This document shows, one piece after another, positions 6,539 through 21,068 of a stretch of 24,976 bases of DNA. The notes below the pieces were generated by a model, which did no database searches, was not told where the DNA came from, and was given only the letters and a program-made list of their open reading frames with translations. The stretch covers positions 1-24,976 of IMG/VR virus record IMGVR_UViG_3300018080_000566; one strand, 5' to 3'. Position 1 is the stretch's first letter. The number at the start of each line of letters is the position of its first letter. This DNA is from a virus. Position numbers and translations under genes: made by a program.

Positions 6539-7120
6539 TCACGCCTCCACGCCAATTTCATGCTCCTTAAGAGCATTCCTTAGCTTTCTGATTGCCTTTG
6601 CCTCCATTTGCCTAACGCGCTCCCTACTCACGCCGCCAACGGCGTGGCCTACGTCATCCAGTTTCATTGGATTCCCGGTCATGCCAAAACGCATTTCAAG
6701 CACGGCCTTTTCTCGTGGGTTAAGCCTCTCATCCATGAGCTTTAATATTGCGTGCTTATGGTCTTTAGAGGAAATGATTTCCTCTGGCGTCGGTAAGTAG
6801 TTGAACGCGTCCGGGCTAGACAATTGCTCGAAAGTCATTTCAACCTCCTTGCTATTGGTTTTCAGCACTTCCCAAAGGTGCCGTCGTGGAAACAAATCTT
6901 CAGGCAGTACGCGAAGCGCATCCGCTATTTTTAGCGCGCTCCCCTTCCATTCTCCATTCGTTTTAAGAGGGGACCGCTTTAACGCCAAGTATTTGCCGAT
7001 TGTATTTTTATCGACGCCGCTAGCGCGCCACAGATCGGCGGCAGTTTCCATGCCATTTGCCCGCATAATGCGCAGCATAGGGCCATTTCGAACTGTGACT
7101 TTTACAACATAATCGCTCAT
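6539..7120 (-). CDS. XRE-type HTH fused to sigma-70 region 4 (transcription regulator)
   Basis: A 193-aa DNA-binding protein. Residues 15-78 look like a Cro/CI-type helix-turn-helix (RIMRANGMETAADLWRASG, then VDKNTIGKYL and LKIADALRVLPEDLFP). Residues 131-186 match region 4 of primary sigma factors: LNPREKAVLEMRFGM and GVSRERVRQMEAKAIRKLRN, i.e. the -35-binding and beta-flap-binding module. No sigma region 2 is present, so it cannot be a complete sigma factor. It probably binds phage DNA with one end and RNA polymerase or a -35 element with the other. ATG at 7120 has GAGGTG 7-8 bases upstream. It lies between the terminase subunit genes. Confidence 0.85.
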   Translation of the reverse strand: MSDYVVKVTVRNGPMLRIMRANGMETAADLWRASGVDKNTIGKYLALKRSPLKTNGEWKGSALKIADALRVLPEDLFPRRHLWEVLKTNSKEVEMTFEQLSSPDAFNYLPTPEEIISSKDHKHAILKLMDERLNPREKAVLEMRFGMTGNPMKLDDVGHAVGGVSRERVRQMEAKAIRKLRNALKEHEIGVEA

Positions 7121-17853: not shown

Positions 17854-18060
17854 TCACTTGTATGCAAAGATTTCGTCGGGCGCTTCCGCCATTGGGTCGC
17901 GTCCTTTTTCCGCCAGCAAGCGGCGGACTTGCATCGCCCATTTGGCAGGCATCTTCGCCCGATGGCGGTAGTTTCGAACGGTTTTGATATTGCTTCCGAC
18001 CGCATCCGCGAGCCGGTCACAATCAATCAGCGCAAGGGCTGTTTTCGGTGTTGCTTCCAT
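17854..18060 (-). CDS. Cro/CI-like helix-turn-helix regulator
   Basis: A 68-aa DNA-binding protein: LIDCDRLADAVGSNIKTVRNYRHRAKMPAKWAMQVRRLLAEKG (about 11-53) contains a helix-turn-helix. It is encoded leftward, divergent from the XRE-type protein at 18175, the normal lambda-style switch layout. ATG at 18060 lies only 8 bases after a TATAAA -10 and has no Shine-Dalgarno, so its mRNA is probably leaderless. It is a paralogue of the protein at 11093-11308. Which of this protein and the 18175 protein is the repressor cannot be told from sequence. Confidence 0.82.
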   Translation of the reverse strand: MEATPKTALALIDCDRLADAVGSNIKTVRNYRHRAKMPAKWAMQVRRLLAEKGRDPMAEAPDEIFAYK

Positions 18061-18068
18061 GCCGCATA

Positions 18069-18096
18069 TTTATACGCACAAAAAATTTTATAGCAA
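18069..18096 (-). promoter_or_regulatory. leftward promoter of unit D, predicted leaderless transcript
   Basis: On the minus strand: TTGCTA (18091-18096), 16 nt, TATAAA (18069-18074). The start codon at 18060 is 8 nt past the -10, so transcription should begin at or within a base or two of the ATG. A half-operator CACAAAAAA (18077-18085) lies inside the spacer. Confidence 0.62.
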
Positions 18097-18113
18097 GCGC
18101 TTTTTTTGTGTTG
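18077..18113. promoter_or_regulatory. switch-region operator (second site of the shared 13-mer)
   Basis: TTTTTTTGTGTTG at 18101-18113 is identical to the arm at 7995-8007. An imperfect opposing arm CACAAAAAA is at 18077-18085, with 15 bp between A-run and T-run (14 bp at the other site). One arm lies in the leftward promoter spacer, the other touches the candidate rightward -35. Confidence 0.65.
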
Positions 18114-18139: not shown

Positions 18140-18174
18140 GGGGCGTCGATAAACGAAAGAACGGAGACAGACAG

Positions 18175-18387
18175 ATGACGCCGCAAGAGTTCCGCCGCAT
18201 TCGTGAAATGTACGGTCCCGATCAAAAGGGCTTGGCTATTTTGCTCGGCTTTGCCGACGCAAATCAAATCCACCGCATGGAAACCGGCAAGCGAGGCATC
18301 ACTCCGCAAACTGCCATCCTGATGCGGCTCATAGAGCGCGATCCCGTTGCCGTGGCAATCGCAAGCCATAAGGAGCAAAACCAATGA
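18175..18387 (+). CDS. XRE-family helix-turn-helix regulator (70 aa)
   Basis: Residues 2-53 form an XRE/Cro HTH: TPQEFRRIREMYGPDQKGLA, then the recognition segment ANQIHRMETGKRGITPQTA. ATG at 18175 follows GGAGACAGACAG, nearly the same leader as at 8084 and 11415. It is the first gene of the rightward early unit and divergent from the HTH gene at 18060; the pair likely forms the lysis-lysogeny switch. No protease/LexA-type C-terminal domain is present, so SOS induction would need another factor. Confidence 0.85.
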   Translation: MTPQEFRRIREMYGPDQKGLAILLGFADANQIHRMETGKRGITPQTAILMRLIERDPVAVAIASHKEQNQ

Positions 18388-18644
18388 ACGAACACGCCAC
18401 CCGCGCTATTGAGCGCGCCCGGCTTGCGGAAAATGCAACTGAAGCCGACGCATGGGCATATGCCTTCGACGCAGTCGAGGCGCTAAGCAAAAGCATCCGC
18501 GCAGGCGAGCGCGGCACAGATCAACAGCAGGCGATTGCCAAGATCAAGGACGCCTTTGCTGCCCAGTTCCGCCGCAACCTGAAACACCCAATCGACGCCG
18601 CCGCCGTTCCCGGCGCGCAGTGGGGAGGGAAAAGTGATGTTTAG
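18384..18644 (+). CDS. unknown 86-aa protein
   Basis: ATG at 18384 overlaps the XRE stop (ATGA). A soluble helical protein (MNEHATRAIERARLAENATE, then QQAIAKIKDAFAAQFRRNL). No recognised domain. It is coupled to both neighbours, consistent with a small early phage gene. Confidence 0.75.
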   Translation: MNEHATRAIERARLAENATEADAWAYAFDAVEALSKSIRAGERGTDQQQAIAKIKDAFAAQFRRNLKHPIDAAAVPGAQWGGKSDV

Positions 18645-18810
18645 CGATATGTTTGACCGCATCATGACGCTTGCCGAAAGCACAAAGCGCAGCGACCGGA
18701 TGATAGCAGGCGCATGGCTTATTGCCATTGCTCCGGCTCTGGCGGTTTTCGCGCCGCTGTTTTGCCTCGCGTATGGCTTTATCCTGATATTTGGAAGGAA
18801 GCCGCTATGA
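18637..18810 (+). CDS. small membrane protein (57 aa)
   Basis: ATG at 18637 follows GGGGAGGG and overlaps the previous gene by 8 bp. The product starts MFSDMFDRIMTLAESTKRSD, followed by a hydrophobic stretch (about residues 23-53: GAWLIAIAPALAVFAPLFCL and onward), long enough for one or two membrane helices, then GRKPL. Role unknown. Confidence 0.72.
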   Translation: MFSDMFDRIMTLAESTKRSDRMIAGAWLIAIAPALAVFAPLFCLAYGFILIFGRKPL

Positions 18811-18947
18811 ACGACGACGACGAAATCGCCCTGCTTTGGGCACGCACGATCCTTGCCGCCGCCGTGTTTGTAATCGTGCTGGTGGCAATAGGCATGGTCG
18901 CAACTGCCGCAATCGATACGGCCATTTACATGCTGGGAGTGGAGTGA
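18807..18947 (+). CDS. small single-pass membrane protein (46 aa)
   Basis: ATG at 18807 overlaps the previous stop (ATGA) and has GGAAGGAAG upstream. Acidic N-terminus MNDDDE, then a hydrophobic segment at about 12-42 (TILAAAVFVIVLVAIGMVAT). Two tiny membrane proteins in a row in an early operon suggest a function at the host membrane, such as superinfection exclusion; this is inference only. Confidence 0.72.
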   Translation: MNDDDEIALLWARTILAAAVFVIVLVAIGMVATAAIDTAIYMLGVE

Positions 18948-19531
18948 TGCAGGAATGGGATTTTGCATGGGAGGTTGCCGCCCACGTTGTAGGCTTGGAG
19001 CCCGCCGATTTGATCGAAAAGAGCAACCCTGGCGGCGCGGTGCAATCGGCAAAGCGCGGCGTGTTCCGGTTCATGCAACGCATGGGCATGCCGGTTGCGG
19101 AAATTGCCAAATGGGCAGGCCGGGACCGTAGTACAGTCTTTCATATGCTCCGCCGGGTTGATAGCCAAGGGCTTTGCCCGCAAGGGCGCGAGGTTGTGCT
19201 GGCGCTGTCCAGCGAATACCGCCGCCGCAAGCTGGGCACGGAGGAAGATCGCAAACAAGCCAAGCGCATTGCCACGGCTTTGCGCGTGCAGAAAATCCGC
19301 GCAGAGGCAAAAGCCGCCGAAAAGCGGGAAGCGGAGGCCGCGCGGCTGGCGGAAAAGACCGGCACCAAGCCCGGCTCATCGCAGGACTTTAAGGCGCATT
19401 TGCCGCTCGTAGTCCCGGACAATATGGCCTCTGTCTTTTGGGCTGGGGGTTGCACGATCAGGCGGCACCCGGAAACTGGCGAGATCATGTGGAGCCAGAA
19501 TAACAAGCACCTTGCACGATATATGAGGTGA
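18947..19531 (+). CDS. DnaA domain IV-like DNA-binding protein
   Basis: A 194-aa protein. Residues 35-71 (AKRGVFRFMQRMGMPVAEIA then KWAGRDRSTVFHMLRRVD) closely follow the DnaA-box-binding domain, including the GRD(H/R)STV(L/F)H signature. The AAA+ part of DnaA is absent. A basic/acidic coiled-coil segment (about 90-140) links to a C-terminal piece (LPLVVPDNMASVFWAGGCTI, then RRHPETGEI). It could bind DnaA boxes in host or phage DNA as a regulator or competitor. ATG at 18947 overlaps the previous stop (TGATG). Confidence 0.8.
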   Translation: MQEWDFAWEVAAHVVGLEPADLIEKSNPGGAVQSAKRGVFRFMQRMGMPVAEIAKWAGRDRSTVFHMLRRVDSQGLCPQGREVVLALSSEYRRRKLGTEEDRKQAKRIATALRVQKIRAEAKAAEKREAEAARLAEKTGTKPGSSQDFKAHLPLVVPDNMASVFWAGGCTIRRHPETGEIMWSQNNKHLARYMR

Positions 19532-19535
19532 GGTC

Positions 19536-19712
19536 ATGGATATCCGCGACTATCAAACGCTAAAGCGCCGGATTATCGAAATGCAGGAAGAATTGGTGTT
19601 CTGGGCATATGAGCAAACCGGCGGCAACAAAGATCAGGCTGCGCGTATGATCGGGATGCACCGCAGGCAGTTTCAACGCATTTTCAAACGCCACAAGGAG
19701 GCGCAACGATGA
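19536..19712 (+). CDS. Fis-type helix-turn-helix protein (58 aa)
   Basis: ATG at 19536 follows GAGGTGAGGTC. Residues 24-53 (AYEQTGGNKDQAARMIGMHR and RQFQRIFKRH) match the Fis/NtrC C-terminal HTH (GNxxxAAxxLGxxRxxxxRxLK). It is probably a small dimeric DNA-binding protein: a nucleoid or transcription factor of the early unit. Confidence 0.75.
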   Translation: MDIRDYQTLKRRIIEMQEELVFWAYEQTGGNKDQAARMIGMHRRQFQRIFKRHKEAQR

Positions 19713-19879
19713 CAGATGAACAAAAGACCGAACTTGAGCGCGACCGTGATAAGGCGCTGATCCGCGAATTGCTGGACGCCGCTTATCGGGCGCGAAAGCA
19801 AGGCCGGGAGGAAGATTGCGATCTGATCCAGCGGGCAATTGCCCGGATCGAAGGCCGGGAATGGGATGGGCTGGCATGA
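19709..19879 (+). CDS. unknown 56-aa charged helical protein
   Basis: ATG at 19709 overlaps the Fis-like stop (ATGA) with AAGGAGG upstream. Product: MTDEQKTELERDRDKALIRE, AAYRARKQGREEDCDLIQRA, ending IEGREWDGLA. Probably a helical bundle or coiled coil. No family recognised. Confidence 0.7.
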   Translation: MTDEQKTELERDRDKALIRELLDAAYRARKQGREEDCDLIQRAIARIEGREWDGLA

Positions 19880-19989
19880 TGGCGCTTGTCATCATCGGCA
19901 TTGCCGCCGCGCTGATTTTCGGCGTATGGTTCATTAACCATTGCCGAAAGTGCCAAGAACCGAACTTGCACAATTGGAGGGGAGAATGA
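19876..19989 (+). CDS. tiny membrane protein (37 aa)
   Basis: ATG at 19876 (or 19879) overlaps the previous stop. Residues 2-20 are hydrophobic (MALVIIGIAAALIFGVWFI), followed by HCRKCQEPNLHNW with a CxxC. The next gene starts within its stop (ATGA). Either a single-pass membrane peptide or a signal-peptide-like element; role unknown. Confidence 0.62.
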   Translation: MMALVIIGIAAALIFGVWFINHCRKCQEPNLHNWRGE

Positions 19990-20327
19990 CAGTTATCGAC
20001 TTTACCGACCGGCGCAACGAAAAGCACAAAAACGAAAGCGAATATGCTTTTGATCTTGTTTGTTTCAAAACGTCAGAAGGTCAGCCATGGGCGACGGCTC
20101 AAAGCGACATGCCGTTTGATGAAGTGATGCATTTGATGCGCCGTCTAATTTTATTGCACGGCATGGAAGAGAGCGACCCGGTTGTCGCGACGCTGACTTT
20201 TCGGAAATCGGGCAGCGTAAACCTGAATTGGGACAATGAGGTCATCGCGCCAACGCCAGAACAAGCGCAATGGCTGCGTGACCAGCTTGAAGTTGCAATC
20301 GGCGAAATGAAGGAAAGCACATCATGA
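19986..20327 (+). CDS. unknown 113-aa protein
   Basis: ATG at 19986 has a strong GGAGGGGAG upstream. Soluble alpha/beta product: MTVIDFTDRRNEKHKNESEY, a central FDEVMHLMRRLILLHGME, a beta-rich VVATLTFRKSGSVNLNWDNE and a C-terminal helix. No known family. It is coupled to the PEP-CTERM-like gene by ATGA. Confidence 0.78.
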   Translation: MTVIDFTDRRNEKHKNESEYAFDLVCFKTSEGQPWATAQSDMPFDEVMHLMRRLILLHGMEESDPVVATLTFRKSGSVNLNWDNEVIAPTPEQAQWLRDQLEVAIGEMKESTS

Positions 20328-20914
20328 AGCACCTATTCGCAGCCGCGGCCCTTACCGCTTTCACCGCCCCAGCCGCCGCGCTGCCTATCGTCTCCGGCGA
20401 CGGCAACGAAACATGCAACGGCGGCGCTTGCGTCGCCATCCAGCCGCACCCGGCTTGGCAAGCGCCCGGCGCTGGTCAGTGGATCAGCTATGCCGACACG
20501 GGCTACGGCGGGGCTGTTCTCGCGCCTCCCGGCAGTATGTGGACGGCGACGGAAACATTTACGGTCGCCCATCGATCCTGGCTCGATTTCACCGCATGGG
20601 CGGACGACACGGCACAAGTTTTTCTGAATGGCGTGGCGCTCAATCTGCCGAACATGACCCAAGGGACGTGCGCCATCGGCCCGCTTGGGTGCGAGCCGGG
20701 CGAGGGCGAGGCCTTCGCCATGGAAGTTGCCGCGGGCACGCACGAACTGAAATTCGAGGTTCGGCAGATTGGCGTCGGTCAGGACACGATCAGCAACCCG
20801 TCGGGCCTTATGTACGAGGGCGAGGTCAACGCCATCCCGCTCCCGGCATCGGCGCTGCTGCTGGCCGGAGGCCTTTTCGGCTTGTGGTCAATGCGCGGAT
20901 TGCGCATGGAATAG
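20324..20914 (+). CDS. secreted protein with PEP-CTERM/VPLPA-like C-terminal sorting signal
   Basis: A 196-aa protein. The N-terminal signal peptide MKHLFAAAALTAFTAPAAA is followed by a likely cut near residue 19-20. The mature part is beta-rich, Gly/Trp-containing, with four cysteines (31, 36, 116, 123), possibly two disulfides, and WLDFTAWADDTAQVFLNG typical of jelly-roll domains. The tail is IPLPASALLLAGGLFGLWSM plus RGLRME: a P-x-P-type motif, a hydrophobic helix and basic residues, the layout of exosortase-sorted proteins. It is unexpected in a phage early operon, yet its ATG overlaps the preceding gene. It likely alters the lysogen surface or was acquired from a host. Confidence 0.85.
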   Translation: MKHLFAAAALTAFTAPAAALPIVSGDGNETCNGGACVAIQPHPAWQAPGAGQWISYADTGYGGAVLAPPGSMWTATETFTVAHRSWLDFTAWADDTAQVFLNGVALNLPNMTQGTCAIGPLGCEPGEGEAFAMEVAAGTHELKFEVRQIGVGQDTISNPSGLMYEGEVNAIPLPASALLLAGGLFGLWSMRGLRME

Positions 20915-21041
20915 GGGCGGGCGTACCTCCACGGGCGGGCCGGGGCGTCCGCCAAGCCATACCTGCCAGAGCGTCAACGCGCGGTGCCTAGCCCCTGATC
21001 GTCAGGTGACCCGCGCAAAGGATGGCATCCCCGGCATAAAG
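20915..21041. other. intergenic spacer after the PEP-CTERM-like gene
   Basis: About 127 bp of G+C-rich sequence with no credible ORF, promoter or repeat that I can see. It ends in the bidirectional terminator at 21042-21068. Confidence 0.5.
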
Positions 21042-21068
21042 AAAGGGCGGCTTAAGTGCCGCCTTTTT
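21042..21068. terminator. bidirectional rho-independent terminator
   Basis: GGCGGC (21046-21051), loop TTAAGT, GCCGCC (21058-21063) then TTTTT. The stem extends by A-T pairs, and the minus strand also has TTTCTTT after the stem. It lies between the converging units E and F, three bases from the 21071 stop. Confidence 0.88.

Follow-up and report, generated by a model that had tools for sequence, protein, structure and literature searches.

A phage operon gene for a putatively secreted protein with a PEP/VPLPA-CTERM-like tail

The exosortase substrates known to date are host chromosomal or plasmid proteins linked to exopolysaccharide, and the question raised by this locus is what a gene resembling those that encode them is doing at the end of a phage operon. 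The window considered here is the whole stretch of DNA that was analyzed, a linear viral record of 24,976 bases that is itself a fragment, and no paper describing a phage-borne exosortase substrate was found in the literature searched, which omits most subscription papers.

The gene, its operon and its phage

The gene under study (20324..20914, + strand) has an intact reading frame (ATG to TAG) and encodes a 196-aa protein with a PEP/VPLPA-CTERM-like tail, referred to here as P0001. It closes a rightward run (18172..20914, +) of small genes that overlap or lie close together, delineated from the open reading frames and helix-turn-helix (HTH) matches; the run opens with HTH regulators and also contains several small membrane proteins and orphans. 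One such orphan, with no relative in viral contigs, immediately precedes the P0001 gene (19986..20327, +), and the two overlap by an ATGA at 20324-20327. A preliminary description of this DNA had made the gene the last of a rightward unit and translationally coupled to its neighbor, and both features are plainly seen in the sequence. Beyond it, a terminator-like hairpin (AAGGGCGGCTTAAGTGCCGCCTTTTTCG, 21041..21068, +), recognized from sequence and fold, lies between convergent genes, and a pattern scan places it on the − strand.

The same description spoke of an “early” operon and of a “lysogen”, both inferred by its author. Lysogeny found no support, as tyrosine integrases are absent from the window (a fragment) and from the nearest phage contigs; 2 of 22 related contigs possess one. 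A suggestive hint of a temperate phage comes from a divergent small ORF (17854..18060, −; from the ORF list, with an HTH recognized by eye only and no PHROG match) that faces the ORF at 18172-18387, with an inverted repeat (CACAAAAAA/TTTTTTGTG, 18077-18110) between them; the two are possible partners in a regulatory switch.

Phage genes recovered in the window comprise those for capsid, portal, terminase, Erf, SSB (assigned from the reading frame only), RusA, a primosomal protein, helicase and methylase (assigned by synteny with annotated phages). Naming a host from them was rejected, because terminase relatives are scattered (Rhizobiales, Pseudomonas, Halomonas) and the nearest helicase is that of Pseudanabaena phage Pan4. 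Beside the terminase genes, 6539-7120 encodes a protein with an HTH (PF13443) at its N-terminus and a sigma-70 region 4 at its C-terminus, a candidate transcription regulator of the phage, and the 594-aa product of 22775-24559 matches nothing in Pfam, NCBIfam, PHROGs or the annotated phages. Window ends 1 and 24976 coincide with ends of sister contigs L004 and L054 (one sample), and another sister contig, L011, extends past position 1; the ends are likely assembly breaks at variable points, a physical end being also conceivable.

An exported body with chromosomal relatives

The N-terminus of P0001 (MKHLFAAAALTAFTAPAAA-LP) looks like a Sec signal, with an 11-residue Kyte-Doolittle maximum of 1.9, and its hydrophobic core and AxA-like end delimit a putative signal peptide at residues 1-20 (MKHLFAAAALTAFTAPAAAL; 20324..20383, +). 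The predicted exported body (residues 21-169; 20384..20830, +) is acidic (3 basic and 16 acidic residues) and has 4 Cys; hydropathy reveals no hydrophobic helix inside it (17-residue maximum 0.63), and it appears mostly beta as judged from alignment, composition and low-confidence models. By hydropathy and composition, P0001 thus has a putative N-terminal signal and no membrane helix other than that of the tail, in agreement with PEP-CTERM proteins, which by definition combine a signal-peptide-like N-terminus with few basic residues and the absence of an internal helix (PMC1569441). At 2.7%, however, the Cys content of the body exceeds the 0.4% usual in PEP-CTERM proteins (PMC1569441). As for the layout originally proposed, the hydrophobic N-terminus, the 4 Cys and the IPLPA tail stand, whereas the “beta domain” is a low-confidence assignment drawn from relatives and from models such as that of AlphaFold, which, run without homologues, was poor (pLDDT 45). 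A profile search of the PDB gave chance matches only, and a weak Pfam match of one homologue (E 0.046) provides a lead towards a PA14-like body.

When 385 alphaproteobacterial genomes were searched with P0001 alone, two full-length relatives emerged, P0002 (46% identity, E 4e-32) and P0003 (40%, E 2e-25). Each sits between ordinary chromosomal genes, ends in a PEP-CTERM tail scoring above cut-off and occurs in a genome encoding exosortase A (XrtA), likewise above cut-off. W-, ADDTA- and GCEP-type motifs, P-x-PA and a Cys pair (Cys116 and Cys123 of P0001) are common to all three. P0001 therefore resembles exosortase A PEP-CTERM proteins (TIGR02595/TIGR03109; P0002, P0003) in its homologous body (40-46% identity) and in the order of signal peptide, beta body and P-x-PA tail, but these are chromosomal and carry VPEPA, whereas P0001 has IPLPA, a shorter basic end and a place in a phage operon. 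Such full-length homology to accepted PEP-CTERM members appears to be better evidence than the curated models that the tail is a sorting signal. Given that the relatives are ordinary bacterial surface proteins, the phage probably borrowed the gene to alter the exterior of the infected cell. A family profile applied to 391 Rhodobacterales genomes, with few candidates scored per genome and no positive control, returned no full-length homologues.

The C-terminal tail and exosortase D

Residues 171-196 (IPLPASALLLAGGLFGLWSMRGLRME; 20834..20911, +) form a sorting-signal-like tail, defined by TIGR03370, tail alignment and a predicted helix (~175-191), in which IPLPA, a hydrophobic stretch and R..LR follow one another. 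The best curated model, TIGR03370 (VPLPA-CTERM), scores 16.6 bits (E 0.006) with the whole protein and 22.4 bits with the isolated tail against a cut-off of 25.35, PF07589 (PEP-CTERM) reaches 12.6 bits against 20.7, and TIGR02595 is not among the profile matches; in P0002 and P0003 the reverse is seen, i.e., TIGR02595 scores their tails and TIGR03370 does not. The profile searches that the preliminary description had proposed thus leave the tail below every curated cut-off, and owing to these scores P0001 is not filed under TIGR03370 or PF07589.

The tail is nevertheless not a product of chance, since its pattern together with a hydrophobic helix is found in 2 of 16,374 ORFs from phage-related loci (both the same 95-aa reading, without a signal sequence) and in one of 20,000 shuffled versions of P0001, and since on a Rhodobacteraceae tail profile its score is 41.8, compared with a maximum of 26.1 among 20,000 tail shuffles, a somewhat circular comparison given that the profile was built from proteins found with P0001 as query. 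Both P-L-P-A and the GGL.GL pattern of the helix are closely kept (14/20 consensus positions). The tails of PEP-CTERM-type proteins in general consist of a P-x-P motif, a hydrophobic helix and a basic cluster, of which P0001 has the motif and the helix; its basic end is short (MRGLRME vs the RRRR type), the cluster being reduced to two Arg.

A sample of 296 Rhodobacteraceae genomes, searched with P0001, yielded 20 matches, all of them weak. Those in 13 genomes span the C-terminal part of P0001 (to residues 190-194) and are mostly confined to it, and the proteins matched end in VPLPASALLL..GL-type tails. With E-values of 2e-4 to 1e-2 no single match says much, so the weight is carried by the enrichment of exosortase D (XrtD), which 67 of the 296 genomes encode, namely 10 of the 13 with tail matches and 57 of the other 283 (P = 3e-5). 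An exosortase occurs in 13 of 15 genomes with similar tails or bodies. With body homology on one side and Rhodobacteraceae tail matches on the other, the original proposal of a secreted protein with a PEP/VPLPA-CTERM-like tail in a phage operon is supported. The likeness to Rhodobacteraceae VPLPA-CTERM proteins (exosortase D; TIGR03370/TIGR04152) lies in the tail motif PLPASALLL..GL.GL; P0001 differs in its sub-threshold tail, its unrelated body and a putative XrtD host. Flocculation-associated PepA (NF033554), which keeps exopolysaccharide cell-bound (PMC9850573), shares the kind of tail, but P0001 matches that model in the tail only, at 10.4 bits and far below its cut-off of 80.

As the relatives of the body are linked to XrtA and the tail resembles those of XrtD substrates, P0001 looks like an XrtA-type body with an XrtD-type tail and a shortened basic end. 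One could imagine that the phage gave a surface protein whose chromosomal relatives go with XrtA an XrtD-type tag for display by its own host, altering the slime layer, an idea that we regard as tentative and rather doubtful. The shortened basic cluster and the sub-threshold tail would also fit an exported but unprocessed protein, its trimmed tail a plain membrane anchor holding a periplasmic beta domain that serves, e.g., in superinfection exclusion by keeping the DNA of a second phage out; membrane or periplasmic exclusion proteins are common in phages. We consider such an anchor unlikely, as it would have no need of the P-L-P-A and GGL.GL features that P0001 has kept, and the full-length homologues are of the exosortase type.

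Gene exchange at the operon end and a candidate role in the infected cell

From the last codons of the P0001 gene onwards, a 137-bp element (20904..21040, +; blastn and alignment) is 93% identical in the sister phage contig L054, whose helicase is 92% identical to that of the window. L054 has no P0001 gene; an unrelated 72-aa ORF occupies the slot and ends at the same stop codon. By exact pattern the element was found in no viral contig other than L054, and its interpretation as a structured RNA was rejected (no Rfam match, folding no better than in shuffles). The last codons of the P0001 gene (GCATGGAATAG) lie within the DNA common to L054, so that recombination may have cut the tail back and left it with a short basic end. 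A second contig, L052, is otherwise 99.9% identical to the window but differs further upstream in the same operon, where at 18634-18950 another small membrane protein is encoded together with an additional gene of ~130 aa. With L054 differing at the P0001 slot and L052 upstream of it, the operon is a variable cargo region and a hot spot of gene exchange, and the P0001 gene swappable cargo at an exchangeable junction. The gene had been portrayed as integrated and not loosely inserted, of which the ATGA coupling stands, but the sister phage with an unrelated gene at the same junction shows it to be exchangeable. Its GC content (0.65) is above that of the window (0.58) and of the preceding gene (0.49), which suggests recent acquisition.

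Searches of 50,697 phage and 72,556 plasmid records gave no P0001 homologue, nor did a pattern scan of viral and genome contig collections (nearby records were possibly excluded from all of these); such searches are blind to unrelated phage proteins with similar tails. A tblastn of the short tail against phages also gave nothing, a result without power given that the same type of query was blank in plasmids too. A single phage copy is thus known, which, like the divergent GC and the sister phage with another gene in the slot, would suit a fragment of a host gene captured recently at the end of the operon, by illegitimate or homologous recombination, its tail already decaying and the fragment of no benefit to the phage. 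The intact reading frame, translational coupling and preserved motifs speak against such passive carriage, as does the identity of only ~40-46% to known chromosomal relatives, and we hold it to be less probable still than a plain anchor. That a bacterial gene was misjoined into the phage contig during assembly is highly improbable: the gene is known from one contig only and its neighbor at 19986-20327 also lacks viral relatives, but the 3' junction enters an element equally placed, with the same stop codon, in the independent contig L054, and the 5' junction is the ATGA coupling.

We favor, with moderate confidence, a phage cargo gene from an alphaproteobacterial PEP-CTERM family whose product is Sec-exported, handled by a host exosortase and alters the surface of the infected cell, the sub-threshold tail, short basic end and Cys-rich body counting against it. 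Family members are known to be exported by signal peptide, retained in the membrane by the tail, sorted in an exosortase-dependent manner and associated with exopolysaccharide (PMC1569441, PMC12188702, PMC9850573), and PEP-CTERM proteins keep exopolysaccharide cell-bound and influence flocculation, motility and biofilm (PMC9850573, PMC12188702). We postulate that the gene was acquired from this surface-protein family and kept at the end of a regulatory operon, that P0001 is probably exported via Sec, with the tail helix anchoring it in the inner membrane, and that a host exosortase, most likely the VPLPA-specific XrtD, probably recognizes IPLPA. After its release, P0001 would reside in the envelope or slime layer, and its small beta domain could there alter surface properties of the infected cell, e.g., adhesion or phage access; the adsorption block or biofilm effect put forward earlier is a guess.

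A phage copy of such a gene would mean that phages remodel the surface of the cells they infect by exploiting this sorting route of Gram-negative bacteria. The type of tag could also serve as a host clue and, if the tag on this phage protein is indeed of the XrtD type, it would point to the host of the phage.
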